Shown one piece after another: positions 6,296 through 50,672 of a DNA stretch of 64,000 nucleotides (positions within the stretch are counted from its first letter, which is position 1; the number at the start of each line of letters is the position of its first letter). The position numbers were made by a program, and so were the translations under genes. Under the pieces are notes generated by a model. That model searched no databases, was not told where the DNA came from, and saw only the letters and a list, made by a program, of their open reading frames with translations. Location: the IMG/VR virus record IMGVR_UViG_3300047678_000069, positions 1 to 64,000 of that record; one strand, written 5' to 3'. Source of the stretch: a virus.

Positions 6296-6310
6296 AGTTG
6301 TCCCTCCAAA

Positions 6311-16659: not shown

Positions 16660-16662
16660 GGT

Positions 16663-16842: not shown

Positions 16843-16852
16843 AGTTGGATCC

Positions 16853-17035: not shown

Positions 17036-17095
17036 GGTCAGATGGTCATTTTTCGACTTTCACCAGAAACATGATGGAGATACTTATATCCAACA

Positions 17096-17113
17096 TGTAA
17101 AGAAGACTTTACA
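17096..17113. promoter_or_regulatory. Inverted repeat after DNA polymerase gene
   Basis: A perfect 7-bp inverted repeat TGTAAAG/CTTTACA with a 4-base spacer, 17 bases past the polymerase stop. It could be an operator for the small-gene cluster or a weak terminator; there is no clear T run. Confidence 0.4.
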
Positions 17114-17129
17114 CGTTCTGAATAAGTCG

Positions 17130-19217
17130 TCATGCCACTGTGATCCCTTCTGCCCAGTGAACAGGATGGTACTCGATCCCCATAGTGAGGGGAACTTGCG
17201 GAATAAGGTCAAAGCCAATTTGGTCAAGTGCGTGTTTCAGTTTGCGAAGCTTCGGCAGGTTGCTCATGTTCTTTCGTTTTGGAAGATCAATGATGATTTC
17301 GTCATGAACTTGCAAAGCTAAGAATGCTGGACCAGACGCTCCCAAACCGGGTCGGGTATTATACCATTGAATCCATTCATTTGTTGCCACCATCATGCGG
17401 CACATCACCCACATTGCTGTCCCTTGTGTTCTATAGTTGAGGGGCACAGTTTCAAGAATTCTTCCCCAGTTCGATCGGGTACAGAGTAGTGGATAGCCGT
17501 GTTCAGGATCAACAGTGATGTCTGGCATTGTTTCAATATAGCCGTGTTCGTTGGCGTAGTCGATCCAATGCTGGTTTAGTTCAGTGAGGTTGCTGAATCG
17601 TGCTTTCAACAAACTGTGGGCACCTTTCTTGTGAAAGGCAATGTCAGCAGTTCCCCATGTGTCTTCTTTGGTAATGTCGACGGCACCATACTGAACAGCG
17701 AAGCCGCCGTTCTTCACCCACTGATACCATGATGAAGCGAACTTCTTCTTGCAGTGAGGACCGATGAGTTTTTCGTCGACTCGTTGACCCTTACAGCATT
17801 CCTTGCAGATGGTTCCGAGTTCTTTGTTCCACAGATCATCGTAGATGGTGTGGAAGTTGAGAAGGTGGGTTGAACCATAGTATGGGTAATCATCAGGATG
17901 TTCGAACAGATCGATGAGTTCACGCTCGCCGGATTCATAGGCTGGCAATCGCAATTCAATGTTCTTCGCGTCGAGTGACCACCATTCACGACCGGGGCCG
18001 GGACCATAGCAATAGCGAAGATTCACTTCTTCTTGCTTTGAAACTTGTTGGGCGTTTGGATTGTTGTATGCGAATCGAAGCGTGTCCGTGCCCGTTGGGT
18101 TTACTGAGGGAAAGACCTTCATGGTTCCGCGATCGTCACAAGGCTTCCAGAATTTGTGGTAGCTGTTGATATAGCTGACCGCAGTCATACGTTTACGGAA
18201 ACGCTGCAGATTCGTTATGAACTTGTGGGGCTTTGATTTCTGGGGAAGAGTATCAACCCACCGGCTCAGCACAGTCTTGTCAAGTGAGGGGTTTCCTTTG
18301 TCGGTGGTCAGGTGAGATGTCAGCTTGAATTTGTCGAATATGATCTTCTTCAGGTCGTTGCTATTGCCACTGATTGGCAAGTGACTGATTTCATTGTCTG
18401 CGGCTTCAATACAAGCTTCACGTGAAGTGTTGGCTTCTTCCTGTAAGCGGATCATCAGTTCTTCAGTTCGATCCTCAGACATAGTGATGCCACTTTGTTC
18501 CATCGTATGGATTACAGGCAGCAACTTGAGTCTGAAGTCATAGATCTTTTCAAGGTCACGTTCTCGAAGAATTTCCAGCATCTTCTTGTAGAGCGGGACT
18601 GTGACCGTTGAGTCAACGTTGGCGTATTCTGCAGTACAGTTCCACCAAGGATGATCTGAAGAGTATCCCTTCTCCTGAGCAATGGCTCTTGGAAGCCACA
18701 TGTCAAGCTTCCAGACAGTTTCCTTTGCGGATGGCATGGTAGGATCACCTGCCTTTGCAATACGCCACTTCGGGAATTCAGACTTGGCAAGCTTTCGGGC
18801 TTCGATGATGTGTTCTTTCATTGCCTCTTCATAAGGCAGAATATTCACACCGACATAGATCAGGGAGAGGGTTGTGAGATCGTGGGGCTGATTGCTCGCC
18901 AGAATATGTGACAGAAGCAAAGTGTCTTTGATGGAAGACCATCCACCTTTGATAATGTCAAGAACGTCTGGGATGAAAGTGGAAATTGCACGGACGTCGA
19001 ATCGTGGGTTGTGGGCAATGAGAGTTTGTTGGCGACCGAACGTGGCTTTGACTTGCTTCTTGTCAGCGAGTGGAATCTTTGGGATTCGAGTGTAGGGGTC
19101 AACATCCCATTCATAGTAGGTGACATTTCCGTCTTCGCTGCAGAATGTAACAATGAACGGCATTGCTCCATGATGGAAGTCAACGCCAGTGGTTTCAGTG
19201 TCAAATGAGACCAGCAT
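17130..19217 (-). CDS. Family A DNA polymerase with 3'-5' exonuclease
   Basis: 695 aa. The exonuclease domain shows DTETTG (Asp6, Glu8), NPRFD (Asp74) and YANVDSTVT near 200. Polymerase motif A is SLDAKNIELR, motif B KNGGFAVQYG, motif C LQVHDEI. Motif B has Phe at the Pol I 762 position. A Cys/His-rich insertion (CKECC...HCKKK) lies between motifs A and B. It is the replicative polymerase, coupled to the HNH gene three bases upstream. Confidence 0.95.
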   Translation of the reverse strand: MLVSFDTETTGVDFHHGAMPFIVTFCSEDGNVTYYEWDVDPYTRIPKIPLADKKQVKATFGRQQTLIAHNPRFDVRAISTFIPDVLDIIKGGWSSIKDTLLLSHILASNQPHDLTTLSLIYVGVNILPYEEAMKEHIIEARKLAKSEFPKWRIAKAGDPTMPSAKETVWKLDMWLPRAIAQEKGYSSDHPWWNCTAEYANVDSTVTVPLYKKMLEILRERDLEKIYDFRLKLLPVIHTMEQSGITMSEDRTEELMIRLQEEANTSREACIEAADNEISHLPISGNSNDLKKIIFDKFKLTSHLTTDKGNPSLDKTVLSRWVDTLPQKSKPHKFITNLQRFRKRMTAVSYINSYHKFWKPCDDRGTMKVFPSVNPTGTDTLRFAYNNPNAQQVSKQEEVNLRYCYGPGPGREWWSLDAKNIELRLPAYESGERELIDLFEHPDDYPYYGSTHLLNFHTIYDDLWNKELGTICKECCKGQRVDEKLIGPHCKKKFASSWYQWVKNGGFAVQYGAVDITKEDTWGTADIAFHKKGAHSLLKARFSNLTELNQHWIDYANEHGYIETMPDITVDPEHGYPLLCTRSNWGRILETVPLNYRTQGTAMWVMCRMMVATNEWIQWYNTRPGLGASGPAFLALQVHDEIIIDLPKRKNMSNLPKLRKLKHALDQIGFDLIPQVPLTMGIEYHPVHWAEGITVA
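17358..17366 (-). promoter_or_regulatory. Possible internal extended -10 site in polymerase gene
   Basis: Minus-strand TGGTATAATACCCG, nearly identical to the intergenic promoter boxes of this phage, but inside the polymerase coding region. It points toward the small genes at 16.2-17.0 kb. It may be chance. Confidence 0.25.
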
Positions 19218-20667: not shown

Positions 20668-22047
20668 CTACTTTTCGTTTTTGAAGGCAGCGAACGGAAC
20701 CGACTTGAAGACGATCTTGTCGTTGTCAGCACTCTTGAGATTCAGCAGTTGCTTCTTTTCGAAGACGGCAGTGATCTCAACTTCAACTGACTTGGTCTTC
20801 CCTTTCGGTTTGTAGAAGCCCATGTCACCAACTTCAAGAGGGGCTTCTTCTTCAGATTCTTCTGATTCTTCACCTTCTTCATCTTCTGATTCTTCACCTT
20901 CAGATTCAGATTCATCGTCGGCTGATTGGGCCGCTTCAATTGCTGAGGCAAGGGCAGCCCAGTTCTTATACTTCTTTTCGTTCGTTGGATCCAAACCAGC
21001 CTCTTCAGCCAGAGCGGTGAGTTGATCAGCAGCAGCCTGATCACCGTCGTTGTCAGCGGCTTCACCAAGGGCTGCATAGTCAATTGCTTCGGATTCGTCT
21101 GATTCTTCTTCAGCTTCTTCGCCTTCTTCTTCAGCGGTTGCCTGTTTGATCAGGGCAGCAACAGCTTTCCAGTCCTTGGCTTTGTCGACGGTCTTCTTCG
21201 GAATGCCAGCGTCGATTGCCATCTTGACCAAGGTCTCTTGAGCTTCGGCATCCTTTGCCATCGCAGATTCGGCAAGTTCATCAACTGAAAGTTCTTCAGA
21301 TTCTTCTGATTCATCAGATTCTTCTGATTCATCAGACTCTTCTGATTCATCAGCTTCTTCTGATTCATCAGCTTCTTCTGATTCATCAGCTTCTTCTGAT
21401 TCATCGGATTCTTCTGATTCATCGGATTCTTCGCCATCGCCGGTTTCGTCTTCTTCAAGATCGTCCTCTTCGTCGGACTCTTCATAATCGACCACGCCGC
21501 CCCATTCTTCGTTTACACGGGGTTCAGGTGCTTTCGGGCCGTCATACTTTTCGTTGTAACCGGGTTGACCCTTTTCTTTCTTCTTCCCTTGCCACGTACG
21601 AACGCGGAAGTAGGTGTCGCTTTCTTCAAGAGCCTTACACGTTTCGTCAAGATTGTCGAAATCAACCTCAGTCGTGTCGACGCCGAGTTTCCTCAGTTCG
21701 TTGAGGACGTGGGCCATATGGTCGTCAATGGTCTTTCGGCTGCGGGTTGGGGTTTCACACAGCGGCTCTTGAATCATGGTCCTCAGACCAAGAATCGGAA
21801 TGCCATTGACTTTGTTAGGGGACACGATGATCCCGACAGCCTGCCAGTACACCTTTCCCTTGAGGTCGCCGGTCTTGTAAGTGTCAAACTTACAGGTCTT
21901 CAACTTGGCGACGCCGTTTTCGATTCCATTCGGGAGAGAACCACCTGATGAAAATTTCGTATCATCAGCTTTGTGAGCGGAGAACGCTTTCTTGCCAGCG
22001 GCAGCGATCTTCGCCAGAACAGAACTACTCGTGCTCTTTGCAACCAT
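20668..22047 (-). CDS. Acidic repeat protein, probable ssDNA-binding role
   Basis: 459 aa from the ATG at 22047 (AAAGGA upstream). The N-terminal ~170 residues form a folded domain (LKTCKFDTYKTGDLKGKVYWQAVG...YFRVRTWQG) like phage OB-fold ssDNA-binding proteins. An acidic Asp/Glu/Ser repeat region follows, then two similar ~45-residue helical repeats (ETLVKMAIDAGIPKK and DQLTALAEEAGLDPT), more acidic sequence and a small beta domain. Position beside Sak4-like and Cas4-like genes supports a replication/recombination role. The SSB label is inference. Confidence 0.6.
   Translation of the reverse strand: MVAKSTSSSVLAKIAAAGKKAFSAHKADDTKFSSGGSLPNGIENGVAKLKTCKFDTYKTGDLKGKVYWQAVGIIVSPNKVNGIPILGLRTMIQEPLCETPTRSRKTIDDHMAHVLNELRKLGVDTTEVDFDNLDETCKALEESDTYFRVRTWQGKKKEKGQPGYNEKYDGPKAPEPRVNEEWGGVVDYEESDEEDDLEEDETGDGEESDESEESDESEEADESEEADESEEADESEESDESEESDESEESEELSVDELAESAMAKDAEAQETLVKMAIDAGIPKKTVDKAKDWKAVAALIKQATAEEEGEEAEEESDESEAIDYAALGEAADNDGDQAAADQLTALAEEAGLDPTNEKKYKNWAALASAIEAAQSADDESESEGEESEDEEGEESEESEEEAPLEVGDMGFYKPKGKTKSVEVEITAVFEKKQLLNLKSADNDKIVFKSVPFAAFKNEK
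21287..21432. repeat. Coding repeat for Ser-Asp-Glu tract
   Basis: Tandem copies of an 18-bp unit (for example TGATTCATCAGCTTCTTC) within the acidic repeat gene, encoding DESEEA/DESEES repeats. Near-identity at DNA level indicates recent slippage expansion. Confidence 0.8.
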
Positions 22048-22094
22048 TTCAACCGTTCCTTTAAGTGGAAACACAAACCAAAAACAGGAGGGGT

Positions 22095-37737: not shown

Positions 37738-37816
37738 TGTTGGTTGTTGGTTGTTGGTTGTTGGTTGTTGGTTGTTGGTTGTTGGTTGTTGGTTGTTGGT
37801 TGTTGGTTGTTGGTTG
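37738..37816. repeat. Heptamer tandem repeat TTGTTGG (about 11 copies)
   Basis: Uninterrupted TTGTTGG units on the plus strand within the 607-bp gap 37601-38207, preceded by diverged copies. The G-rich strand could form G-quadruplexes. ORFs read through it on either strand are artefacts. Confidence 0.9.
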
Positions 37817-38740: not shown

Positions 38741-39493
38741 TTATCGTTGCTGAATCTTTTCATGGTTATAGTTGCGGTTCAACCTGCGAATTTGAAATGT
38801 TTCTCGCAGCTTTTCGAGTCGGGCTTCACTCTGCTGGGGAAGAGAGCCGTCGGAATATTGTGTGGCACGACCAAACCAGTTTGTTGTAGGTTCTCCTATG
38901 TGAAGGACTTCGAATGGGGGTCTGACTTTGTTGAAGTGATGCCACTTCTGTTGAAAGAAGGAATCGGCACCGCCTGCATGTTTCCAGTTGATATCATGCC
39001 ACGGAGCAGGTCCAAGGACAGGATCTTCAGCATGAAACACCTGACAGTAGCCTGCAAACTCAGCGACGTTTCTATGTACTGGATATTGAGGCCAGTATGG
39101 TTCCTGAGGAACTCCTGTGAGTGACGGGTACATTCTTCTGAGCGGGGTGTAGAGAGTGCCTCTTTCGATGTTGAATTCTGGAACCTTCTTCGGAATCAGA
39201 ATGTCAGCGTCAAGTAAGCACAACCATCCATGCCGTCCAAAATTGTCAAGCCCCTCTTCGAGTGCTCTCCATTTGTTGAAGTATGCTCCATCTTCATAGA
39301 AGGCATCTGTGATATGGATTGCACAGTCAAGTCCCTCAAAGGCAAAGAGCCGCGTCTCAACGTCTGCCTTTGAAGTGATGACCATAACATCATCGAAGTG
39401 ATGCATATTGTATGGAAGAGTGATCTTCAGCATATCAACACAGTCGACACAGACGATAACAGCCCGAACAGGGGGATTGGAAGAATTGAACAT
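38741..39493 (-). CDS. Glycosyltransferase-like protein 1
   Basis: 250 aa with a GT-A fold pattern: VIVCVDCVDMLKITLPYNM at the start, VITSKAD, and the metal-binding DAD (95-97) in WLCLLDADILIP. The later motif HAGGADSFFQ is shared with the next gene. It probably transfers a sugar or related group. AAGG lies seven bases upstream. Paralogue of the 269-aa gene. Confidence 0.7.
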   Translation of the reverse strand: MFNSSNPPVRAVIVCVDCVDMLKITLPYNMHHFDDVMVITSKADVETRLFAFEGLDCAIHITDAFYEDGAYFNKWRALEEGLDNFGRHGWLCLLDADILIPKKVPEFNIERGTLYTPLRRMYPSLTGVPQEPYWPQYPVHRNVAEFAGYCQVFHAEDPVLGPAPWHDINWKHAGGADSFFQQKWHHFNKVRPPFEVLHIGEPTTNWFGRATQYSDGSLPQQSEARLEKLRETFQIRRLNRNYNHEKIQQR

Positions 39494-39495
39494 GA

Positions 39496-40305
39496 TTAAC
39501 CTTGGTTCTCAGGGGGAACAGATTTGTGCCATCGATAGTTTGAAACATAGCCGGGGACTGCAACACGGTCACTCTCATAATGGTCAGGTTGTGTTCCGTC
39601 TCTCAGCCACCCGTTGACAACATGCATTGACTTCAAAACTTTGTTGCGTTCTTCTGCCTCAGGAATTGGCTCGGAATCTAAACGGTCTGTGACACGTCCG
39701 TACCAATTCGAATCGCGAGGGCCTAAGTGCAGGACCGTGAACGGCATTCTCTTTCTCTCATGTGGAGGCCACAGGTTCTGAAAATAACTGTCGCCACCTC
39801 CTGCGTGCCTGAATGTTGGATCATACCAATACGGTTGATCTCTCAGGTAAGGGCTTGAGGCATTGAACAGTTGGAAGAAGCCGGGGAACTCTCTGTCATG
39901 TGTCGACTTAGCATATCTCCAAGCCCTATCAGGATTGCCCTGACTGAAGTCTACAGGATTGTTGAGAATAAGACGACTTGGACCGTACAACTTGACAGGA
40001 TCAAGTTGCGGCAGGTTCATAGCCGGGGGGAATACAATGTCAGCATCCCAGATTATGATCCACCCATCTCTCCCCAGTAAATCTAGCCCCTCTTCCATTG
40101 CAAGCCCCTTATTGAAGCGGGCACCGTAACGAGTAAAAGCATCTGTCCTGTGCAGCTTTACTGAGGGAAAGTACGAGACGAGGTCAGCGGTCTTGGTGTC
40201 AGTCAGGGAAGTCACCACCACACACTCTTCCATGTACTTCATGTTCAGGGGGAGTGTCATCCTCAAAAGGTCGTCATAGTCTACGCAGATTACAATGCCT
40301 CTCAT
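39496..40305 (-). CDS. Glycosyltransferase-like protein 2 (paralogue)
   Basis: 269 aa, clearly duplicated from its neighbour. VICVDYDDLLRMTLPLNMKYM, DAD at 87-89 (IIIWDADIVFP), HAGGGDSYFQ and FTVLHLGPRDSNWYGR all align. The start overlaps the methyltransferase stop (ATGA). Different C-termini suggest different acceptors. Confidence 0.7.
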   Translation of the reverse strand: MRGIVICVDYDDLLRMTLPLNMKYMEECVVVTSLTDTKTADLVSYFPSVKLHRTDAFTRYGARFNKGLAMEEGLDLLGRDGWIIIWDADIVFPPAMNLPQLDPVKLYGPSRLILNNPVDFSQGNPDRAWRYAKSTHDREFPGFFQLFNASSPYLRDQPYWYDPTFRHAGGGDSYFQNLWPPHERKRMPFTVLHLGPRDSNWYGRVTDRLDSEPIPEAEERNKVLKSMHVVNGWLRDGTQPDHYESDRVAVPGYVSNYRWHKSVPPENQG

Positions 40306-40892
40306 TGGGCTCCCTTTCTCTTCAGTGTGACAAGTGAATTGCAGCGATTGACTATGCTGTAGTGTTGGTCAACTATGAATGCGTCAACTGCAGGCTTCAC
40401 ACCTGTCCATGTTGGGTCTTCATAATCATGCAGGAACACAGTAGACGGTCTGAACTTCGCAACAACTGCCAGATCAGCCGACACCCCTTCAAACGAATGA
40501 TCACCATCGATGAACACGATAGGCAACTCTGGAAAATAAGGTGACTTATGAAACTCCTCAAGTGTTCCAGTGAATAGTTGCATGTTCGGCAGAGCATTAG
40601 AAACCCAATGATCCTTCCTCTTCACTTCCTTGTTGGCATATTCCTGCGGAGGGTCAACTTCGATTGAGGCAAAGTTGTCAATACAGTACAGATCAAGGTT
40701 TGGATGTGACTTTGCGATAATGTGAGCCGACACTCCTGAAGCTGTTCCAACTTCGATCAGGGTTCCGTAGTTTGGAAGCTGTGCGATCAATACCATCAAT
40801 TCAGTGTATGACAACCATGAGGCCCCCTGAAGTCCCCGATAGAGTCTTGGTAGTGCATTGTCGTTGTGATCGTTGATTGGTTCAGGAATCAT
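40302..40892 (-). CDS. Class I SAM-dependent methyltransferase (Methyltransf_24-like)
   Basis: 196 aa from the ATG at 40892 (GGAG eight bases upstream). Motif I is TLIEVGTASGVSAHIIA, then LYCIDNF (acidic end of beta2), IVFIDGDHSFEGV, and FLHDYEDP. The IDGDHSFEGV pattern is typical of methyltransferases acting on sugars or natural products. Coupled to both neighbours. Confidence 0.8.
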   Translation of the reverse strand: MIPEPINDHNDNALPRLYRGLQGASWLSYTELMVLIAQLPNYGTLIEVGTASGVSAHIIAKSHPNLDLYCIDNFASIEVDPPQEYANKEVKRKDHWVSNALPNMQLFTGTLEEFHKSPYFPELPIVFIDGDHSFEGVSADLAVVAKFRPSTVFLHDYEDPTWTGVKPAVDAFIVDQHYSIVNRCNSLVTLKRKGAQ

Positions 40893-41554
40893 CGAAAATT
40901 CTCCGCGACGCAATAGATGAAATTCTCTTTGGGGACAATCCGCTTGGTCACGATGTAATTGACCTTATACTTCGCTTCGATCAGCATTGTGGTCAATGAT
41001 GTTGAATTGAAGAACCAGAAGTGGTCTGAGTTGTACAGGTCACTATCGTCAGGGATCAGAATGAAGGCGAGCCCGTGAGGCTTCAGGACTGTTTTGAGTT
41101 TCTCCAAAGCTGATGGAGCGTCCTCAAAGTGCTCAAGAGAGTGAGCCAGGAAAGCAACATCGTATTCCTGTGTAGGCTCAAACTCCTCAAAGGTTGAATT
41201 GTGTACCGTGATCTCAGGCCACTTCTCACTCATGAGGTCACATGCCCACTTGGAAGGTTCAACCGCTGTGTATGTGAATTTCTTTTCAAGAAACATTGGA
41301 ACATACTGTGAGCGACCTGAACCTATCTCAATGACAGACTTACCTCGTCCATAAGGAAGCGGCGGGAAGTTCTCATTGAACTCTCGAATATGGTTTTCAT
41401 CCTTTCCCTGAATCGAGTCATAGTATTCCTGCGACAAAAGCTGGATTGGGTTGTAACTCTTCTGATGGCGAGGACATTTCCGAATGTTGTAGCGGGCTGA
41501 TGTTGTGGGGTGTACCCTGAGAAGGCAACCGCAAGTCAATGGATGTGTAATCAT
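40889..41554 (-). CDS. SAM-dependent methyltransferase with zinc-like N-terminus
   Basis: 221 aa. The N-terminal CGCLLRVH...KCPRH resembles a zinc ribbon of methyltransferases that follow sugar-modifying enzymes. Motif I SVIEIGSGRSQYVPMF near residue 75, motif VAFLAHSLEHFEDA and HGLAFILIPD are Methyltransf_11/23-type. Stop and start overlap neighbours. Confidence 0.8.
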   Translation of the reverse strand: MITHPLTCGCLLRVHPTTSARYNIRKCPRHQKSYNPIQLLSQEYYDSIQGKDENHIREFNENFPPLPYGRGKSVIEIGSGRSQYVPMFLEKKFTYTAVEPSKWACDLMSEKWPEITVHNSTFEEFEPTQEYDVAFLAHSLEHFEDAPSALEKLKTVLKPHGLAFILIPDDSDLYNSDHFWFFNSTSLTTMLIEAKYKVNYIVTKRIVPKENFIYCVAENFR

Positions 41555-42540
41555 CAGTAAGCTCCATTCTCAATGTAGTCAGTAGACTTTGGAAGATGTT
41601 TTTCACCGAGTTGAACAACGTCAGTGATCTGCTGAATGGCTCGTGAGTCTCGAAGCTTGACCATCGGAAGATGCATGGCACTGATCTGCTCTGCAGGGCC
41701 TGAGTTAGCAAGAGCCCCGTATCCCTTCAGAGGAATTCCACAACCGTGACAATGAAGCTTGACCTGATCAGCGTAAGCCTTCATCGAATGTCTCCACCAT
41801 CCCGGCACAACAGGGGACCCCACATCAGGAATAGGGTGTCCAGATCCGTTATAGTTTGGGTTGTGCTGATGCAACATTGCGTGAGCCCCGGCGATCTCAC
41901 AGAAGTAGGCTCGAAGCTCCCCCCTGAAGATACAGACCATCGCTGACCAATATTTGTTGATATCACAATTAGCAATCAGGTTCCAACGTTCGCCTTCATC
42001 CTTGATCACATCACTCATGGCAACGAGTGGAGGCCCGTGTCTTGAATCCTGATCAAGCCCCTTCAGATTGTTAGCAAGGAATTTTTGAGTTGAAGGCCAG
42101 TCAGTTAAAAACTGTTGCCAAGCTTCCTCATCCTGATGGACATTAAGGTTTGACACGGCAGGATTGAATGTTTCCTCCATGATCGCACCCTTACCCCTCG
42201 GATGATTGCACCATAGTCCTCGCTGTTCAAACGGAACTTTGGCTCTGAGAATTTCGCAGAGGATATCAAACTGTGGATGTAGAGCAGGATTGCCTCCAAA
42301 CATTCCCACCACTCCGAAGTAGGCATTAGGAGTTCCAAACTCTAGTGAATCAATTGCCTGTTCGTACTGTTCTGGAGTAATGAATTCAGCCTTGCCTCCA
42401 AACTGTGAATTTTGTGTGCAGTGAAAACATTTCTTGTCACATGTACGGGTGATCCAGATTTGCATAACCCCGCGTCTCCAGATGCCGGGTCGTAGTTGTC
42501 CGGGAGGGACCATTTTCTTTAATGCGTAATCCAAGTTCAT
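41554..42540 (-). CDS. Radical SAM enzyme
   Basis: 328 aa. The [4Fe-4S] motif Cys34-x3-Cys38-x2-Cys41 (TCDKKCFHC) is followed by GMFGGNPALHP. A C-terminal CHGCGIPLKGYG may hold further metal. Radical SAM enzymes do difficult chemistry on peptides, sugars or nucleotides. The message leader GCCGCAATGAA is shared with the 148-aa gene at 46602. Rare among virion genes. Confidence 0.85.
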   Translation of the reverse strand: MNLDYALKKMVPPGQLRPGIWRRGVMQIWITRTCDKKCFHCTQNSQFGGKAEFITPEQYEQAIDSLEFGTPNAYFGVVGMFGGNPALHPQFDILCEILRAKVPFEQRGLWCNHPRGKGAIMEETFNPAVSNLNVHQDEEAWQQFLTDWPSTQKFLANNLKGLDQDSRHGPPLVAMSDVIKDEGERWNLIANCDINKYWSAMVCIFRGELRAYFCEIAGAHAMLHQHNPNYNGSGHPIPDVGSPVVPGWWRHSMKAYADQVKLHCHGCGIPLKGYGALANSGPAEQISAMHLPMVKLRDSRAIQQITDVVQLGEKHLPKSTDYIENGAY

Positions 42541-42555
42541 TGCGGCGAACTTTCT

Positions 42556-43659
42556 TTAAGAGAGAAGTGATAGAGCGTCAAACGATTCACCGGGGAATGA
42601 TTCAGCCAACGGATGTCGATTGTTCCCCATAGATGAGACTATACCTGTATGCTGAACAAGTGAGGGATTGTGAACATACTCGAACCAACCTGAAAGCTTC
42701 ATTGTGTCTGAGATACCTCCATCGATTGATCGGTGTCCTCGTTCTGGATCCTGCATCTTGTCTAATAGAAAACGATGAGCCAACAGAGTTTTGACTCCTT
42801 CAGCAGTGAAGACAAGAGCAACAGCCCCTCTGCCATTTTGATTCGACATATAAAGTCCAGTATAGCCAGTTGGACAAATACTTTGGTTGCTTGGGAATGT
42901 GTAGAGGTTAAGGTATCCCTTATCCGGGAAGCTCACATTGTCAAGGTAGGCTTTCAGATTCCGCACAGTAACGAAATCATCCTGAAAGATTGCGTAACGA
43001 TCCGCATGAGGTTTTCTGATGTAGAGTTCATACAGAGTCAGTATCCAATGTCCGGCTGTTCTGATATGGTCCCTGAACGTCACAGGATGCCCTAGGACGC
43101 GATATGAGGCTTCATGCTGTGTTTCAGACGCATCGACAAACAGACGCGGTTCTGAGAAGCCTGCGAGCTTCAGAGAATCGAGCGTCTGAGGGAGTGTCGT
43201 CTCAAGTCTTGACGGAACAGTCGTAACACCGTAGCTCCATATCAATGATCTCAACTGAGTTTCCGCAGACTTTACTGGGGAAGAGAGGCCAGTGATCGAA
43301 GTGAACATGGCAGCAGCGTCCTTCAGCGTGCCTTGCACAACTCTTGAGGCCCATGAACCAAGCTGATTCAGTTTCTCCTGACGTTCAGCACAACCGCACT
43401 CTTCACCAAGCCAGTCTGAAACAAGCTCCTTTGTGATTCCGACACTACTTAGAGCAGCGGATACATGATCTCCCAATCCTTTCGAGGGCGGATCAGATTG
43501 AGGCGAATGATTGACTGGATGATTCTTTGAGACTACCGCCAGAATCTCATCAACTACAGTTCCCTGTCCGCTTCGACACTTCATCCAGAGTACAGGGTGA
43601 AGAGATCTGGCTCTGACTGTACAGTAACCGGCTATTGGACAATTACACTTCGTGGTCAT
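42556..43659 (-). CDS. Glycosyltransferase-like protein 3 with Cys-rich N-terminal domain
   Basis: 367 aa. Residues 1-125 hold a Cys-containing start (CNCPIAGYC...CRSGQG) and GLGDHVSAALSSVGITKEL with CGCAERQEKLNQ, a module I know from phage and mobile-element proteins. The C-terminal domain has a metal-site pattern YAIFQDDFVTVR like GT25-type transferases. A fusion of an adaptor with a transferase. Coupled to the next gene (ATGA). Confidence 0.65.
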   Translation of the reverse strand: MTTKCNCPIAGYCTVRARSLHPVLWMKCRSGQGTVVDEILAVVSKNHPVNHSPQSDPPSKGLGDHVSAALSSVGITKELVSDWLGEECGCAERQEKLNQLGSWASRVVQGTLKDAAAMFTSITGLSSPVKSAETQLRSLIWSYGVTTVPSRLETTLPQTLDSLKLAGFSEPRLFVDASETQHEASYRVLGHPVTFRDHIRTAGHWILTLYELYIRKPHADRYAIFQDDFVTVRNLKAYLDNVSFPDKGYLNLYTFPSNQSICPTGYTGLYMSNQNGRGAVALVFTAEGVKTLLAHRFLLDKMQDPERGHRSIDGGISDTMKLSGWFEYVHNPSLVQHTGIVSSMGNNRHPLAESFPGESFDALSLLS

Positions 43660-45065
43660 AATCCTGAATCTCCCACATCCAGATAAACTTTGCTCGGAAG
43701 AGTTGAAGGACCTCCGAATACTCCTGTATTGGTAGTTGATCTAGTTCTATAGTCAAAGGTCAGGGGTAATTCAACTTCGCCTTCTTCAGAACAGGCAACA
43801 TTTCGAGACCACTGAGCTATCAGTCCATTAAATTGTCCGAGACCGTAAGGTCCAAAGAACGGCCATATGTCAAAGATCCCAAACTTAGACATTCCCGGCA
43901 GCACAGAGAACACGTCTGGGGTAATCCGGTCCTTGATCTTGAACTTCCCCTCTTGGTATGACTCAGGATAATTCAATGAGACTGTGTTATTGGGGTATGT
44001 ATATCCGAAGATGGTTGAATAGTAATTTGGATAGAACTGGGTTGTGTAGTTTACTATTGTGGTGTCGTTAGATCCGAAAATAGATGCCTGACCAAAGACC
44101 GGCTGTGGATTAGTGAAGTTGCCGATATTTGAGCAGAGGCCGGGGCGAACATACAGAGACACTGACCATCGAGGATGTACCACCCAGAAGTATCCACAGA
44201 GTTTAGCTGACGCCAGATAGTAGGCGTGGGCATAGGTTTCTGGGTAAGGCTCTATGGGATCTAAATTTCTGTTGCCGGGGACTGCATTTGAAGGATGTCC
44301 CATGAGGAATCTAGGGTCCAGTCCGTTGACTAATGCCTCAGAAGTTCTGGGAACTGATCTGAATCCATCGATGTAAACTATATTGCGGTTGTTGATGTCA
44401 TTGAGAACATAGAGGTTGTCATCAAGATTGGAATCAGCCATCTGCACTTCACCGCTCTGCTCAGAGAACGGATGCACGACATAGAACCTTTGCTTCCAAG
44501 CCCTTGCAGGCGGATTGCTTAAATACTGTATGGAATACTGTCTCCAGTTAGGATTTGGAGGATAAGGGTCAAGCGTCACAACGTCATTATTCCATATGCT
44601 CCACGGCATCTTCATATTAGCGATGGAGGTCCAAGTACATTCAGGGGCAGTCCCCTTTGTAAGATAACTGGCAAGATGTTTGACCTGATAGTTCAGTCCT
44701 GTGGGTACATCAGGATGGGTTCTATTAGCTTCCAGATCAATGTAAGTAGTCTTGGTTCCAGTTGCAGGATTAATGACATAGAGTGGGTGAGTGTAAGACC
44801 CTGACTTGGAGCCCGACTCTGTTTTACTGAGAAGAGTAGACGGGACTGCATGAGCACCCAATGCTGAATGCAGTCTCAGATTCATCGCTGCTGGATAGCC
44901 TGCAGGACGATTGACGTTGGTGCATCCATGACACTTGTAGACAGGTGGCATCTTCACAGGATAGACGCAGGCACGACAGGGGCCAATATCCTGCTCTGGC
45001 ATAACTTCATTCAGGCAGAGGGGACGCCAATATTTCTTGTCTTCTGTGAACAGGTAGTCTGGCAT
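43656..45065 (-). CDS. Putative virion protein with Cys N-terminal module (469 aa)
   Basis: The N-terminus KKYWRPLCLNEVMPEQD with CRACVYPVKMP and CHGCTN is a Cys-rich module shared with the 96-aa neighbour. The rest is Asn/Pro/Tyr-rich beta sequence as in tail-tip or fibre proteins. No catalytic motif. Lies between tail and modification genes. Confidence 0.6.
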   Translation of the reverse strand: MPDYLFTEDKKYWRPLCLNEVMPEQDIGPCRACVYPVKMPPVYKCHGCTNVNRPAGYPAAMNLRLHSALGAHAVPSTLLSKTESGSKSGSYTHPLYVINPATGTKTTYIDLEANRTHPDVPTGLNYQVKHLASYLTKGTAPECTWTSIANMKMPWSIWNNDVVTLDPYPPNPNWRQYSIQYLSNPPARAWKQRFYVVHPFSEQSGEVQMADSNLDDNLYVLNDINNRNIVYIDGFRSVPRTSEALVNGLDPRFLMGHPSNAVPGNRNLDPIEPYPETYAHAYYLASAKLCGYFWVVHPRWSVSLYVRPGLCSNIGNFTNPQPVFGQASIFGSNDTTIVNYTTQFYPNYYSTIFGYTYPNNTVSLNYPESYQEGKFKIKDRITPDVFSVLPGMSKFGIFDIWPFFGPYGLGQFNGLIAQWSRNVACSEEGEVELPLTFDYRTRSTTNTGVFGGPSTLPSKVYLDVGDSGL

Positions 45066-45093: not shown

Positions 45094-45384
45094 CTATGGA
45101 CAATCACATGGAACATCAAGAACCGTATAGATGGGGTATGACCCTGTTGGAGGTACAGGTGAGCCGCCGTTTGTACAGTGATCTTCAATCATGAAGAACA
45201 CAAAGCTATCCCACACCCACTTAGAAGTACCACATCCACCAGTTCCTGTTCCCGTTCCCGGCATTGAAACCGGAACAACACAAGCAAGGCACTGCTCACC
45301 ATTGACTGATGTTTCAGGCTTTACTGTGTTTGTGCAGAGGGCTCTCCAATATTTCTTTGGAGACGAGAAAACCATTGTTGGCAT
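45094..45384 (-). CDS. Small virion-like protein sharing the Cys module (96 aa)
   Basis: KKYWRALCTNTVKPE with CLACVVPVSMP aligns to the N-terminus of the 469-aa protein. A Gly/Thr linker (GTGTGTGG) and a short Cys-containing end (VPCDCP) follow. Probably an accessory tail protein. Confidence 0.6.
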   Translation of the reverse strand: MPTMVFSSPKKYWRALCTNTVKPETSVNGEQCLACVVPVSMPGTGTGTGGCGTSKWVWDSFVFFMIEDHCTNGGSPVPPTGSYPIYTVLDVPCDCP

Positions 45385-45386
45385 GA

Positions 45387-46151
45387 TTAGGTTCCTGCGA
45401 TCAGATTGTTGGGCCAGTGTATTTCAAGTCGCATGTCAGGAGATGCAAGTGGGTCCCATTTGATGTAAGCTCCCGTGACTGTAAGTGTGACAGGGGCACC
45501 TAAGCTATCGAATCCGATTATCTGACTGCTTACGTTCTTTGACCAGAAGCCATCTCCTGAATCATAATCAAGCCAATGTTCATCAGCAGGCAGAACTGTG
45601 ACGCCATATGGCTCCTCGCTTTTCTTACTGTAAAGATTCGCGAGTGCAACCGCAACCCTTGAGGTGGTTTTCTCTCCCCCCACGATTATGTCGTATTCGG
45701 ATTCCTTATAGCAGAAGCACCCACAGACTCCTGAAATGAGAGGAGTGGTTGAAGGGCCTGCAGCAGAAGCGGCGAGCCAAACACCGTCTTTCGTTCTCAG
45801 AACTACGATCCAAGTTTGTCCTGGAATGACATTCGTTGAGATGTTGTATACCGTCTTGTCTGGTATGTCCATCGGAGTCAGATTGTTATCGATGATTCTC
45901 CAGATTTCACATTCAGCAGAACCTGGAGCATCCCCTGTTCCTGTTCCGGTTGATGTACCGGCTTGGATTGATAAAGGAGCAATTCCGTTCGATGGAGTCA
46001 GGGCAATATAAACCTCAGGAGTGAATTGATCGTCACCGGCAAGGAAGTTTGGATTCTTTGTGCCTAGGTTCTGTATTCTTTGGAGTTCGGATGAAACAAC
46101 CTGTTTGATCAGGGCCATATCCGTATCAGTGAGTAAATTCAGTTTAGCCAT
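45387..46151 (-). CDS. Putative tail protein (254 aa)
   Basis: A helical start (MALIKQVVSSELQRIQNL) is followed by a beta-rich body with GTSTGTGTG linkers and CGCFCY. Located downstream of the tape measure gene in the tail block. Family unknown; structural role inferred from position. Confidence 0.6.
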   Translation of the reverse strand: MAKLNLLTDTDMALIKQVVSSELQRIQNLGTKNPNFLAGDDQFTPEVYIALTPSNGIAPLSIQAGTSTGTGTGDAPGSAECEIWRIIDNNLTPMDIPDKTVYNISTNVIPGQTWIVVLRTKDGVWLAASAAGPSTTPLISGVCGCFCYKESEYDIIVGGEKTTSRVAVALANLYSKKSEEPYGVTVLPADEHWLDYDSGDGFWSKNVSSQIIGFDSLGAPVTLTVTGAYIKWDPLASPDMRLEIHWPNNLIAGT

Positions 46152-46616: not shown

Positions 46617-47588
46617 CTATAATGAGGAGGGGATGCCGAGAGAAAGAAAGTTGGACTCTGGATAGTATTCAATTTTGAGTTGATGCAGGGATTCACCGAC
46701 ACCTGTACCTGTCTGTGGAATACCTAGCGGTTCACCTGCACCGTTCAGAGGAAGCCTGATCGGATTGCCTGCTCTGTCAATTGCTTTGATGAAGTGTCTT
46801 GGATTATTCTTGTCAGGAGCACTTCCGCCGATCTTGTCAAGAGTCCAGTTTCCTGTAAGCTTATCCCAATGCCCGTTCAATACCTTGTTCCCCTCATCGA
46901 CAACGTATCGATCAAAGGTCTTGGCATCGATATCAAACTCGAATGTTCTGGTATAGTAGTATGTACAGGTTCCATACAACTTACGTTCCCAGTTTACATT
47001 GCTGAGTTTGACACACCGCCGAGACATCCCCCACAATGTAGAGTCATTGACAGTGTCAATCATATTAGCAAACGTCGACAGCCCAAGGGAGGTTACATTC
47101 TGTCCAATCTTGACTGTCGGCCTGTTTGCATCGAATTCAACCTGTTGTCCCTGAAACGGCTCCCATGAGGATGAACGAATGACTGCACCAAAACGGTTGT
47201 AGGTCGCCTCTTTGGTGTATTTCGTGAATGATCCGCTAAGCTGTTGAGGCTCGCTGAGTGGATCAGATATAGTTGAGGTTTGGCATCGACTGAGAGGCTT
47301 TGTTGAAAACTTCTGATCGACTCTCCAAAACCTGACCCACTCTCCTTCTTTGATTTCAGGGGCTCGACTGATTTTCATATAAGGATAGCAGAATGCCCAA
47401 GTGTCATTGTCGTTTCCGAAATTCCACGTTGAGCCTACTGCAGGCAATCCTGACGCCATCATCACTGTATATGGACCGTCATTCTTGCTTGACGTTTCAA
47501 CAAGGTGGGTAACCGTGAAGGTTCTATGTCCTTCATCATCACGCTCACCTTCCCAAACTCTGATGCCTGTCTTCACTGTTGCCGTCAT
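46617..47588 (-). CDS. Putative tail protein (323 aa)
   Basis: Beta-rich, with FTVTHLVETSS, WERKLYGTCTYYYTRTFEF and FDIDAKTFDRYVVDEGNK. It directly follows the tape measure gene, where distal-tail or baseplate-hub proteins normally lie. The start overlaps the tape measure stop. Function inferred. Confidence 0.65.
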   Translation of the reverse strand: MTATVKTGIRVWEGERDDEGHRTFTVTHLVETSSKNDGPYTVMMASGLPAVGSTWNFGNDNDTWAFCYPYMKISRAPEIKEGEWVRFWRVDQKFSTKPLSRCQTSTISDPLSEPQQLSGSFTKYTKEATYNRFGAVIRSSSWEPFQGQQVEFDANRPTVKIGQNVTSLGLSTFANMIDTVNDSTLWGMSRRCVKLSNVNWERKLYGTCTYYYTRTFEFDIDAKTFDRYVVDEGNKVLNGHWDKLTGNWTLDKIGGSAPDKNNPRHFIKAIDRAGNPIRLPLNGAGEPLGIPQTGTGVGESLHQLKIEYYPESNFLSLGIPSSL

Positions 47589-49891
47589 TATGCTCCCCCG
47601 ATATTCGAAATGCCAATCATGTCAAAGAAGCCTTTGCCCTTCTCACGACCTTGGGCAACAAGTTCAGTTAGATTCTCAACCATAGTCTCAAACAGAGGTT
47701 TGTTGTCGGCACTGTTCGCGTTTGGATTCTTCGGAGTCTGGATTGTCATTTTGTCACGATAAGCCGCAATGACATCATAAGCCTTCGTGGTTCCGGCAGC
47801 GACTGCATCGATAGCCCCCACAGCTCCTTTGACCCCACTTGTGAAAGCTTCCCCCATCTTCATTCCGGTTTCAGTTGCTCTATCAAATGTTGCTGGGGAA
47901 ATGATCGGAGCAACATATTCGTCCCATATATCGGTTCCCATTTGTGCGAATCCGAATATTCCAGTACCTCCGACTTTACGATTATCAACTGCATTCTTTG
48001 CAGCTTTCTGAGCGTCTTCCCAAGCTTTACGTGCAGCTTCACCGGGGGCAGAAGCCTTTTTGAGGGCCTCTTCTCGCATGACCTCATTTTCAGCTTGAAG
48101 ATCACGATAATATTTTCGAGTTTCCTCTAGTGTCTTATTCGCAGCAGTAGCGTCGATGGTAGGCATCTTCCACTTATCCGGCATCACCGCGTTGAAGCTT
48201 TCAATCAGCCAGTTCATTGATTCAATGATATTCACTACCATCTTGTCAAATGTTTCACCAAGTGCCGATTGTAATCCTATCCATACACTAGCGATGAATG
48301 ATTTTGTCTTGATCCACCCGGATTCAATATCCACAAGCATCGAAGTCCAAAGGTAACTCACTGAAGTGGTGATAACTTTCCAAGCTAATTCAAATTCACC
48401 ATTCTTAATGAGGTCTACTACTAAGAGAAATTGATCCCCGATGAATTTAAACGCAGATTGAAGTTGATTTGCAGCCCATGCCCCGATATTGGTGAATTTA
48501 TTCAATCCATAAGCTGCGGCTGTGATGCCAGCAATGATCAATCCAAGAGGGCTAAATACTGCGGCAAGGATTGGAATCAACCCTGCGATGACAGCACTTG
48601 CAGAGGTGAACCCAATAACAGCTAACTTCACAGCCGCTGCAATTCCAGCCCATAGAACTAGAAAATCAGCGTTATCTACAACCCATTCGGCAATAGAAGC
48701 CCCGACACTCACAATGGTATTCCAGAAGCTTGTGAGATAAGGAATTACTGATCCAACTTCACGTCGGATTGTCGAGAAAGCGTCTTGAAGAATCGGGGTT
48801 ACAGCTCCAATTGTTGAAGAGGCGACTGAATAGATACCGGAAAGAAGTGGGGAGATGTATGTTTGGAATAAGTCAGAAATCATATTCAGTCCCCACATCA
48901 CCTTAGGGACAATCCATCTAATAACATTTCCAAAAGCGTTGCTAATGACTGGCCCCCACACTTCAACTGTCTTAATGACACTTTTCAATGTACTTCTAAT
49001 GTCAAGTTTTTCAATTAACACTGCACCCATCTTGGTGACTTCTAGTTTTATAGTGTCAGCAAGAGTTGACCAAAGACCGAATACAGTATTCGATTGCTTC
49101 TCCATCATATTGAAGAATTTCCCGCCGGGTCCACTTGCTGAGATGAAGGCTTGCTCAACCATTTGGGCAGAGATTCGACCAGCTTCCATTTCAGTTTTCA
49201 GTTGAGCAAGGCTCTTGCCGGAGGTCCGTGCCATTTCCTGAAGAGGATTGAATCCCCAATTGATCATCTGCAACAGGTCCTGACCCATCAGGCGTCCTGC
49301 TGCCTGTGTCTGTGAGTAGGCGTAGGCAAGTCCGTTGAGTTTATTCTGGTCACCTGCTGCAACGTCTCCGAGGGCTTTCAGCGTTGGCATGATCTTGTTT
49401 TGAGCGACTCCGAAGTTCAACATCATCTGAGCAGCAGAGCGAAGCCCAGGCATCTCAAATGGTGTTTTCGCTGCAAAGTCATTCAGTTCTGCCAGCATCT
49501 TCTTGGCAGCACTTGCTGAACCCAACATGACCTCAAATGAGATAGCTGATTGTTCAGCTTCTGCGGCGAGCTTCATCGCATATCCACCACCTGCGATACC
49601 GCCAGCAATCCCACCGACTCCCATCAATCCCGCTGCGGCACCTGCTCCGACAGAACCGAGCCCCATTGCTGTAACGGCTCCGGCTTTATTAACAAGTCCA
49701 CTCAGAGCTGAAGCGGCTGAAGCAGCGTATCCCTTCACCTTTGAAGTCAGACTTTGGATTGTACTTGCGTGACGTTCAATCTGTGTGGCAGTCTTTTGAG
49801 AGTAGGAAGCAGCCTGCTGCATCATTGAGCGATAGCTGCTTCCATCTCCAACCAGACTGACGACCAGACGTTCTACTTCTGTGCCTGTCAT
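47588..49891 (-). CDS. Tape measure protein
   Basis: 767 aa from the ATG at 49891 (ATGA overlap with the frameshift ORF). The N-terminal part contains the conserved VVSLVGDGSSYRSMM and the tape-measure domain EVMLGSASAAKKMLAEL with PFEMPGLRSAAQMMLNFG and INWGFNPLQEMA. Several long hydrophobic helices follow. It sets tail length and is threaded through the tail tube. Shorter tails than many siphoviruses are implied by the length. Confidence 0.9.
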   Translation of the reverse strand: MTGTEVERLVVSLVGDGSSYRSMMQQAASYSQKTATQIERHASTIQSLTSKVKGYAASAASALSGLVNKAGAVTAMGLGSVGAGAAAGLMGVGGIAGGIAGGGYAMKLAAEAEQSAISFEVMLGSASAAKKMLAELNDFAAKTPFEMPGLRSAAQMMLNFGVAQNKIMPTLKALGDVAAGDQNKLNGLAYAYSQTQAAGRLMGQDLLQMINWGFNPLQEMARTSGKSLAQLKTEMEAGRISAQMVEQAFISASGPGGKFFNMMEKQSNTVFGLWSTLADTIKLEVTKMGAVLIEKLDIRSTLKSVIKTVEVWGPVISNAFGNVIRWIVPKVMWGLNMISDLFQTYISPLLSGIYSVASSTIGAVTPILQDAFSTIRREVGSVIPYLTSFWNTIVSVGASIAEWVVDNADFLVLWAGIAAAVKLAVIGFTSASAVIAGLIPILAAVFSPLGLIIAGITAAAYGLNKFTNIGAWAANQLQSAFKFIGDQFLLVVDLIKNGEFELAWKVITTSVSYLWTSMLVDIESGWIKTKSFIASVWIGLQSALGETFDKMVVNIIESMNWLIESFNAVMPDKWKMPTIDATAANKTLEETRKYYRDLQAENEVMREEALKKASAPGEAARKAWEDAQKAAKNAVDNRKVGGTGIFGFAQMGTDIWDEYVAPIISPATFDRATETGMKMGEAFTSGVKGAVGAIDAVAAGTTKAYDVIAAYRDKMTIQTPKNPNANSADNKPLFETMVENLTELVAQGREKGKGFFDMIGISNIGGA

Positions 49892-50672
49892 TGGTCTTTC
49901 TTTCCGCCGAGTCTGGCGATCCATAGCTGTAGGGATTCATCTGACATTTCGTCAAGCTCTTTTCGAGTCAGCTTCCGTTGTATGACCGGCTTTGGAGATT
50001 TGAATTCAATCTTCATGTCGGATACATTGGTCTTCTTCGAGCCGCCTCTCTGAGCTTGTATCAGGGCTAATTGCATCATGTAATGATCAGAGCGAGAAGG
50101 ACGATTCCATTCGCCCCTCATCCACTCTCTGATTACACGGAATTCCCTGACGGACATACGTCTACGAACTTCACTGGGAAGAAGTCCGAATAGAGCTGCT
50201 ACCTCTATCCAAGGTCCGTAGACTTCTGAGCGTTTTTTAGTCGATCCTGATCTTCAATCAGTTTCTTCTTACGCTCTTCCAGTCGGGCGATTTCCTTGTC
50301 AATCGACTCAATCGTTTCTTCTTCGTTGTCCAGTTCACTGATCTCCTTGATCTTCACCGCAAGACCTGTGATGGTCTTAGGCTTGAACTGGTTTCGAACG
50401 TGGTCAATGTGTACTCGCTTTCCGGCCTGAGGGCCTTCAGCGTGGTACAGACACAGGGAAACGAGAATCGGTTCAACGTCAGCGAGATTTTTCATCGCTG
50501 TAGGTCGACCATCCGGCCCCATTGTGGTTCGGTCGAGAATCGCGTTGCGATAGTGGCACGCCGCATCGCCGTTCGCTTCACGAATCTCGAACTTCTCCCC
50601 AGCAATAATGACGGGGACCACAACAGGACCGGATGAGTCTTCTTCAAATACAAGGGTTTCAGCTTGTGACAT
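49888..50672 (-). CDS. Tail assembly chaperone, -1 frameshift fusion (G-T type)
   Basis: The fusion joins codons 1-147 of the 155-aa chaperone with 114 codons of the -1 frame (261 aa in total). The -1 frame is open from the slippery site: RSEVYGPWIEVAALFGLLPSEV followed by SVREFRVIREWMRGEWNRP, a sequence typical of the T part. No separate start is needed. This is the classic arrangement directly before a tape measure gene. Confidence 0.85.
50160..50238 (-). promoter_or_regulatory. Programmed -1 frameshift signal
   Basis: Slippery heptamer A-AAA-AAC (50232-50238, minus strand) in the zero frame, an 8-nt spacer, then a 7-bp stem GTCTACG/CGTAGAC (50217-50223 with 50160-50166). Inside the loop lies ATAGAG/CTCTAT. 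Confidence 0.85.
50205..50672 (-). CDS. Tail assembly chaperone (G type)
   Basis: 155 aa with a beta-rich first half (VVVPVIIAGEKFEIREANG) and a C-terminal coiled coil (IDKEIARLEERKKKLIEDQDRL). GGAG lies seven bases upstream. It is the zero-frame product of the frameshift gene and binds the tape measure protein during assembly. Confidence 0.85.
   Translation of the reverse strand: MSQAETLVFEEDSSGPVVVPVIIAGEKFEIREANGDAACHYRNAILDRTTMGPDGRPTAMKNLADVEPILVSLCLYHAEGPQAGKRVHIDHVRNQFKPKTITGLAVKIKEISELDNEEETIESIDKEIARLEERKKKLIEDQDRLKNAQKSTDLG

Follow-up and report, generated by a model that had tools for sequence, protein, structure and literature searches.

The window analysed is a 64,000-nt stretch of DNA from an uncultured tailed phage (IMG/VR record IMGVR_UViG_3300047678_000069, positions 1–64,000). 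It includes an island of six minus-strand genes spanning from position 43,659 to position 38,741, arranged 5′ to 3′ as GT3, radical SAM, Methyltransf_23, Methyltransf_24, GT2 and GT1, with a block of tail genes upstream:

47588–49924, minus strand, tape measure protein (PF20155, E 2e-21; PHROG tail, E 5e-58)
46617–47588, minus strand, T323, tail-lineage marker lying upstream of the cassette, at a conserved position in contigs
45387–46151, minus strand, T254, tail-block protein with a (Thr-Gly)n-type tract, candidate acceptor
45094–45384, minus strand, T96, small tail-block protein with a (Thr-Gly)n tract, candidate acceptor
43656–45065, minus strand, T469, last gene of the tail block
42556–43659, minus strand, GT3, glycosyltransferase-like protein, candidate first-sugar enzyme
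41554–42540, minus strand, Twitch-type radical SAM enzyme (PF04055, Radical_SAM, E 4e-7)
40889–41554, minus strand, Methyltransf_23 SAM methyltransferase (Pfam E 2.5e-15)
40302–40892, minus strand, Methyltransf_24 SAM methyltransferase (Pfam E 2.4e-7)
39496–40305, minus strand, GT2, GT-A fold glycosyltransferase with DAD at residues 87–89
38741–39493, minus strand, GT1, paralogue of GT2 and last gene of the cassette

All six ORFs of the island reported in the initial annotation are present on the minus strand at the positions assigned there. Their classification as three glycosyltransferase-like proteins (two of them paralogues), two SAM methyltransferases and a radical SAM protein agrees with the Pfam matches, with a GT-A model and, for GT3, with motif and context. 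Translational coupling, also claimed there, is borne out by overlaps or short gaps at all junctions: T469 (45065–43656) overlaps GT3 by 4 nt, a 15-nt gap separates GT3 from the radical SAM gene, the latter overlaps the Methyltransf_23 gene by 1 nt, the Methyltransf_23 and Methyltransf_24 genes as well as the Methyltransf_24 gene and GT2 overlap by 4 nt, and GT2 and GT1 lie 2 nt apart. The Methyltransf_24 gene likely starts at ATG 40892; the ORF listed for it (40302–40913) opens at TTG 40913. Promoter and terminator scans gave no signal above the background of shuffled sequences. The tape measure gene fixes the tail neighbourhood, and the island does lie beside virion genes.

The model obtained for GT2 has a GT-A fold (pLDDT 88). 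Many GT-A chains match it, including chondroitin polymerase K4CP (Foldseek E 1.3e-6, VIA-align Z 15.8), SpsA and ppGalNAc-T2 (VIA-align Z 13.9 each). GT2 shares the GT-A fold with the mucin-type polypeptide GalNAc-transferases and is encoded near Thr-rich, acceptor-like proteins; however, it has no sequence relationship to these enzymes, and such likeness of fold is common to many GT-A enzymes. GT1 is 37% identical to GT2 over 227 aa (E 7e-49). Within the family that both proteins form, D87 and D89 of the DxD motif are invariant in 13 sequences, and in relatives too a member of this family is the last gene of the cassette. No member of the family turned up in 84,980 prokaryote species genomes, consistent with a viral target. 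Neither GT2 nor GT3 nor the radical SAM enzyme had a sequence match in a search of 50,697 records of named phages. For the Methyltransf_23 protein, we propose a role as sugar O-methyltransferase on the basis of its family.

GT3 consists of a glycosyltransferase-like core (approximately residues 139–367), with the Asp-rich motif IFQDD invariant in 16 relatives, preceded at the N-terminus by two small Cys-rich domains (CxCPxAGYC... and GLGD...WLGxxCGCxERxEKLNxLGxWA). The GLGD..CGC domain adjoins GT3 or is fused to it in other contigs, and in two relatives a Glycos_transf_1 domain is fused to GT3. GT3 has no Pfam match, and comparison of GT3 and GT-B profiles with the PDB gave no meaningful match. 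We also considered GT3 as a remote homologue of the GT1/2 family, for which profile comparison gives no support. Its assignment as a putative glycosyltransferase rests on the IFQDD motif, the Glycos_transf_1 fusions and the context; it is a better candidate for the first transfer than GT2.

In the radical SAM enzyme, the cysteines of the CxxxCxxC motif (C34, C38 and C41) are invariant, as are four cysteines of the C-terminal domain (C192, C214, C264 and C267), as for one auxiliary cluster; the auxiliary cluster of BtrN is ligated by four cysteines (PMC9012708). The model, of low confidence in its final part, has SpeY as best fold (Z 12.4, 238 aa, 3.9 Å), with BtrN (Z 11.1) and BlsE (Z 9.7) following. 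Its core fold thus appears closest to the sugar/cyclitol dehydrogenases SpeY and BtrN, with which it shares the CxxxCxxC core and the four C-terminal cysteines; unlike theirs, its gene belongs to a glycan locus rather than an antibiotic cluster, and sequence identity is only 11–14%. We propose that it oxidises or epimerises a sugar ring. A bacterial homologue, 51% identical, is encoded in a flagellin-glycosylation locus together with two flagellins, FliD, a PF01973 (Maf-type) protein, GT2-family proteins and a Methyltransf_24 protein. A distant relative of the enzyme adjoins an apparent polysaccharide ABC transporter.

The same cassette was then sought elsewhere. GT3 was found in 60 distinct viral contigs, the upstream side being scored in 57 and the downstream side in 39. 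T323 lies upstream of GT3 on the same strand in 42 of 57 contigs and downstream in none of 39. Conversely, the radical SAM gene (16/39), the GT1/2 family (18/39) and a GT-B-like gene (15/39) lie downstream, and none of the three was found upstream (0/57). In the contigs retrieved with GT3, the radical SAM gene precedes GT1/2 in 18 cases and follows it in 0. Of the 28 contigs that have both GT3 and GT1/2, 26 have GT3 as the leading gene, and in 24 the radical SAM gene lies between them. The order is therefore fixed where the radical SAM gene and GT1/2 are present, while the interspersed sugar and methyltransferase genes vary: Methyltransf_24 accounts for 20 of the 89 ORFs that relatives have between GT3 and GT1/2, and the others include GT2-family, Caps_synth, LicD, nucleotidyltransferase, epimerase and UDP-sugar dehydrogenase genes. 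No flippase or polymerase family is among the intervening genes listed. Lack of conservation, which would have spoken against the initial annotation, is not the case; dozens of viral contigs share the cassette and its gene order, so that the island is more than a chance arrangement.

We then looked at possible acceptors. T96 carries the tract PGTGTGTGG (45258–45241) and T254 the tract GTSTGTGTG (at about 45950–45933), and T96 and T469 have an N-terminal Cys domain in common. Thr/Ser content of the tail proteins of the window is modest, and extreme Ser/Thr richness is rare in GT3 contigs (4 of 355 upstream ORFs); the acceptor candidates of the window are hence Thr-Gly tracts and not full mucin domains. 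Upstream of GT3, 52 (TG)n tracts occur in 31 of 57 contigs, with 0 downstream or elsewhere; their synonymous codons differ, and shuffled sequences give 0. As 26 of the 57 contigs have no such tract, either there must be further acceptors or the sugar is not attached to the tract. The tract was rejected as a stand-alone marker of the cassette, since GT3, GT1/2 and the radical SAM gene occur in 0 of 80 viral contigs retrieved by a (TG)5 pattern scan.

In some relatives, the slot of GT3 is occupied by a GT2-family enzyme of about 650 aa. The tail protein preceding it is mucin-like, with poly-Thr in 35 of 44 contigs; downstream, poly-Thr was found in 0 of 262 ORFs. Within the T323 lineage, poly-Thr is present in 22 of 23 contigs with the 650-aa enzyme vs. 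0 of 47 with GT3 alone (Fisher p 3e-17), and Thr-Gly tracts in 27 of 47 contigs with GT3 alone vs. 1 of 23 with the 650-aa enzyme (p 1.5e-5). Poly-Thr also lies upstream of the 650-aa enzyme in 17 of 25 contigs without detected T323, apparently of another tail lineage. Only four GT3 contigs have poly-Thr, and all four also carry a full-length 650-aa enzyme. The best tail tree shows about eight changes of glycosyltransferase type, only two of them on well-supported branches. This covariation of tract with enzyme type is new evidence for tail glycosylation; adjacent genes could instead travel together.

Decoration of virion proteins, as the initial annotation had suggested, is well supported by context. 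In its specific form, we consider it likely that the island directs cytoplasmic O-glycosylation of the phage's own tail proteins, with an unusual sugar chain on Thr-rich stretches. This reading is favoured because the island opens with a gene that overlaps the end of the tail block, a position kept in GT3 contigs; because the intervening genes are glycan genes and the radical SAM homologue belongs to a flagellin-glycosylation locus; and because the Thr-rich tracts of the adjoining tail proteins covary with enzyme type.

The alternative that survives best, although we regard it as doubtful, is that the Thr tracts are flexible linkers and their covariation hitch-hiking, the island glycosylating the capsid, the tail tube or another virion part. 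Thr-Gly tracts are indeed frequent in unrelated viral contigs, and in mycobacteriophages, capsid and tail tube subunits are reported to carry glycans at their C-termini (Freeman et al., 2023, PMID 37329881, as cited in PMC12619734). It explains less well that poly-Thr precedes the 650-aa enzyme also where T323 was not found, and that poly-Thr in GT3 contigs is confined to the four with that enzyme. This alternative overlaps with the main reading: glycosylation would still be of the virion, with a different acceptor.

It seems unlikely that the island alters host LPS, capsule or flagellin during infection, leading to superinfection exclusion or receptor change. The gene content of relatives (LicD, Caps_synth, epimerases) overlaps that of bacterial surface-polysaccharide loci, and the transporter beside the distant radical SAM relative points the same way. 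However, the island is locked to the tail block, the intervening genes listed include no flippase or polymerase family, no lysogeny gene was found among the ORFs examined, replication genes suggest a lytic phage, and the Thr-rich tail proteins that change with the enzyme would be left unexplained.

The other half of the initial proposal, decoration of DNA, with glycosyltransferases acting on modified phage bases tailored by the methyltransferases and the radical SAM enzyme, is very improbable and was rejected as main reading: although viral glycosylation of DNA is reported (Pyle, 2024, as cited in PMC12619734) and the window has a thymidylate-synthase-family gene (12082–13422) whose best matches include phage enzymes annotated as thymidylate synthase and, in one case, as pyrimidine hydroxymethylase, 19 of 28 cassette records, several of them >60 kb, lack this gene family, which only 9 have (the records may be incomplete), the window ORFs scanned showed no further base-modification family, and the island sits with tail genes, as part of their block, and not with replication genes.

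Returning to tail O-glycosylation, we infer as follows the glycosyltransferase role of GT3, the residues modified, the sequence of events, the chemistry of the sugars and the advantage to the phage. The island and the tail genes would be co-expressed. GT3, perhaps recruited to freshly synthesised tail proteins through its small Cys-rich domains, would put the first sugar on threonines of the exposed Thr-Gly tracts of T96, T254 and possibly T469, and GT2 and GT1 would extend the chain. One ring position of a sugar would be oxidised or epimerised by the Twitch radical SAM enzyme, and both methyltransferases would act on the glycan as O-methyltransferases, so that the tail would bear a capped oligosaccharide of unusual structure. 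The host would supply the sugar donors in this phage, some relatives encoding their own. As a benefit, the tail may be protected or masked, or adsorption may be altered.

Such a system would resemble flagellin glycosylation, for which Maf proteins are proposed cytoplasmic O-glycosyltransferases (PMC4065374). In both cases, glycosylation genes lie beside the gene for an exposed, polymerising surface protein, and the flagellin locus with the radical SAM homologue shares that enzyme and Methyltransf_24 with the island, cytoplasmic modification being proposed there as well. The island proteins include no Maf/PF01973 match; unlike in Maf islands, the attaching enzyme would be GT3 (the 650-aa GT2-family enzyme in relatives) and the acceptor a phage tail protein. 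As in mycobacteriophages, going by the account cited above, phage-encoded glycosyltransferases are thought to act on virion proteins, and by order and coupling the glycosyltransferase genes of the island are linked to virion genes. It differs from what that account describes in being coupled to genes of the tail block that follow the tape measure gene, in the linked Thr-rich tracts, and in including methyltransferases and a radical SAM enzyme of the Twitch type.

To our knowledge, virion protein glycosylation is documented for few phages, and a radical SAM enzyme that tailors sugars for virion glycans would be a first. In the open-access literature, no paper was found that links glycosyltransferases to phage tails of a Thr-rich or mucin-like type. 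More tentatively, and with somewhat less than even confidence, we suggest that these phages have mucin-like O-glycosylated tails built by interchangeable pairs, GT3 with Thr-Gly repeats and the 650-aa enzyme with poly-Thr, exchange of the slot and a variable radical SAM tailoring cassette making up a phage "serotype" locus. The natural swaps between both pairs make enzyme specificity testable with purified proteins, and the island enzymes could serve to attach sugars to simple peptide tags. The locus predicts virion glycosylation across a broad group of uncultured phages, with named candidate acceptor proteins and residues.

The virus record comprises 65,941 bases, of which the window is a part. 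The six ORFs of the island lie where the initial annotation had placed them, all on the minus strand:

43659-42556, minus, GT3, a putative glycosyltransferase of 367 aa, the least secure assignment in the island
42540-41554, minus, radical SAM protein, backed by Pfam
41554-40889, minus, Methyltransf_23 protein, backed by Pfam
40892 (probable start)-40302, minus, Methyltransf_24 protein, backed by Pfam
40305-39496, minus, GT2, predicted GT-A fold
39493-38741, minus, GT1, paralogue of GT2

Three of the junctions within the island are overlaps (1, 4 and 4 nt) and two are gaps (15 and 2 nt), in keeping with the translational coupling previously claimed, and GT3 overlaps by 4 nt the stop of T469, a tail-block gene. 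The tail context is secure, a tape measure protein being encoded at 47588-49924. GT2 and GT1, which are paralogues with 37% identity, give no Pfam match; GT2 is upheld by a model with the GT-A fold (pLDDT 88) and by a DAD motif invariant across 13 relatives. GT3 matches nothing in Pfam or the PDB; its IFQDD motif is invariant across 16 relatives, and in two relatives a Glycos_transf_1 domain is fused to a GT3-type protein. Elsewhere in the window are an FkbM-type methyltransferase (PF05050; 14160-14912, minus), distant from the island, that could also act on the glycan; a PAPS-reductase-like phage gene (PHROG; 5369-6325, minus) close to the terminase end; a replication-block protein with a long acidic Ser/Glu/Asp repeat (20668-22074, minus; ESDESEESDESEE); and an intergenic short tandem repeat, (GGTTGTT)n, between two convergent gene blocks (37738-37815).

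For GT2, GT3 and the radical SAM protein, no relatives were found among named phages. Scans of uncultured viral contigs returned 2 close radical SAM loci and 30 GT3 loci, together with 126 GT1/2 and 84 GT3-core matches, GT1/2 being the family of the two paralogues. Sixty distinct contigs were seeded on GT3, 57 of which extended 8 kb or more upstream. In 42 of these 57, the tail-block gene T323 lies upstream of GT3 and shares its strand; it is downstream in 0/39. Downstream, and never upstream, are the radical SAM gene (16/39), GT1/2 (18/39) and a GT-B-like protein of about 354 aa (15/39). Gene order is kept: GT-B precedes radical SAM by 16 to 1 and radical SAM precedes GT1/2 by 18 to 0, while GT3 is ahead of GT1/2 in 26 of the 28 contigs having both, with radical SAM between them in 24. 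The same cassette thus recurs elsewhere, as the initial annotation had proposed to check. The window cassette has no GT-B gene; instead it carries the two methyltransferases and a further GT1/2 paralogue. The scan of the stretch from GT3 to GT1/2 covered 89 further ORFs, whose matches are methyltransferases (Methyltransf_24 in 20) and the GT2, Caps_synth, LicD, nucleotidyltransferase, epimerase and UDP-sugar dehydrogenase families. The locus is a variable glycan-synthesis region bounded by conserved ends. One cassette-bearing contig (L012) has an ORF (16272-17639) with LEVRTLLSA at its start, a signature of surface proteins in planctomycetes, which is no more than a hint at the host group.

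In T323 contigs seemingly devoid of GT3, its slot is occupied by another glycosyltransferase of about 650 aa with a Glycos_transf_2 domain, which has about 390 viral matches in the scan. The tail protein preceding it resembles a mucin, with Cys-rich modules interspersed among long runs of poly-Thr. Four contigs show such proteins directly before the enzyme:

L047, 7748-11242, mucin-like tail protein
L052, 9050-12226, mucin-like tail protein
L056, 6892-9201, mucin-like tail protein
L066, 11352-14399, mucin-like tail protein

Poly-Thr (T5 or longer) occurs upstream of the 650-aa enzyme in 35 of 44 distinct contigs (TG tracts in 2), and in 0/262 ORFs downstream of it in the same contigs. Only 4/57 GT3-seeded contigs have poly-Thr upstream (L300, L305, L341 and L344), and these are exactly the ones that also encode a full-length 650-aa enzyme. 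Radical SAM, GT-B and GT1/2 are missing downstream of this enzyme (0/55 loci that have 6 kb or more, duplicates not removed); the tailoring set therefore goes with GT3.

The GT3 contigs have their own repeats. In the window, PGTGTGTGG in T96 (45094-45384, minus) and GTSTGTGTGD in T254 (45387-46151, minus), both closely upstream of GT3, are candidate acceptors. Same-strand ORFs within 6 kb upstream of GT3 hold 52 (TG)n tracts, in 31/57 contigs, and the remaining ORFs of GT3 contigs hold none. These are not DNA microsatellites, since Thr and Gly are each encoded by all four of their codons and no such tract arises in shuffled proteins. A TG tract alone is an ordinary low-complexity linker; among 80 other viral contigs from a (TG)5 coding-pattern scan, none has a GT3, GT1/2 or radical SAM gene.

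Within 70 distinct contigs of the single T323 tail lineage (T323 itself at 46617-47588, minus, in the window), poly-Thr is present in 22/23 with the 650-aa enzyme versus 0/47 with GT3 alone (Fisher p 3e-17, kinship ignored), and a TG tract in 27/47 with GT3 alone versus 1/23 with the 650-aa enzyme (p 1.5e-5, kinship ignored). On the best T323 tree the glycosyltransferase type switches about eight times, only twice on well-supported branches, and both of these switches are accompanied by a poly-Thr change. Where no T323 was found, 17/25 contigs with the 650-aa enzyme have poly-Thr. In our view the most serious rival holds that, as neighbours, tract and glycosyltransferase merely travel together, the true acceptor being another virion protein; this is unlikely, and it overlaps the main reading.

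Small Cys-containing domains also move around these genes. GT3 of the window (42556-43659) holds a GLGD...WLGxxCGCxERxEKLNxLGxWA domain, found in other GT3 genes at the N-terminus, the C-terminus or in a neighbour ORF, and the domain at the C-terminus of the 650-aa enzymes is found again directly ahead of the GT3 core in at least five contigs. We propose that these domains may act as docking modules. An N-terminal Cys domain (KKYWR.LC.N...C.ACV.PV.M) is common to T469 (43656-45065, minus) and T96, and is also present in a protein of contig L011.

Beyond CxxxCxxC, the radical SAM enzyme has four cysteines (C192, C214, C264 and C267) invariant in ten relatives. As many would be needed to ligate one auxiliary cluster fully in the manner of BtrN, which oxidises 2-deoxy-scyllo-inosamine (PMC9012708). 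Its model is confident over much of the core, the last 60 residues excepted. The nearest structures are SpeY (Z 12.4; 3.9 A over 238 aa), whose PDB title is Twitch radical SAM dehydrogenase, BtrN (Z 11.1) and BlsE (Z 9.7), titled a blasticidin S biosynthesis enzyme. The enzyme may oxidise or epimerise a sugar ring, fold likeness in itself not showing the reaction. Among 84,980 species genomes we found no GT1/2 relative and three radical SAM relatives. One, 51% identical, lies in a flagellin glycosylation locus of a Chromatiaceae MAG (L268, 7989-8924) with FliD, two flagellins, a PF01973 (Maf-type) protein, GT2s and a Methyltransf_24 protein; Maf proteins have been proposed to encounter flagellin in the cytoplasm and to O-glycosylate it (PMC4065374). 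A second (L267), probably viral, is downstream of virion-like genes, as in the window. The family is otherwise rare (4/392 genomes of one phylum and 1/369 of one class, the seed genome counted in each).

Modification of the host surface by the island is improbable, as it leaves the tail-block lock and the covarying tracts without explanation. The window also encodes a thymidylate-synthase-family (TS-family) protein with a Cys-rich insert (12082-13422, minus), possibly a dUMP hydroxymethylase, whose best matches are Pseudomonas phage enzymes. One related phage record is annotated pyrimidine hydroxymethylase, which would suit DNA modification by the island, a reading that we hold to be very improbable because the TS-family gene is found in only 9/28 cassette records, though these may be fragments.

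Mycobacteriophages are known to glycosylate their virions with enzymes of their own (Freeman 2023, as cited in PMC12619734). We found no description in the open-access literature of a locus that is coupled to tail genes, encodes a Twitch radical SAM enzyme and has an exchangeable pair of glycosyltransferase and acceptor. The island probably serves cytoplasmic O-glycosylation of tail proteins: GT3 would start the glycan on their Thr-Gly tracts, GT2 and GT1 would extend it, and the radical SAM enzyme and the methyltransferases would tailor it.
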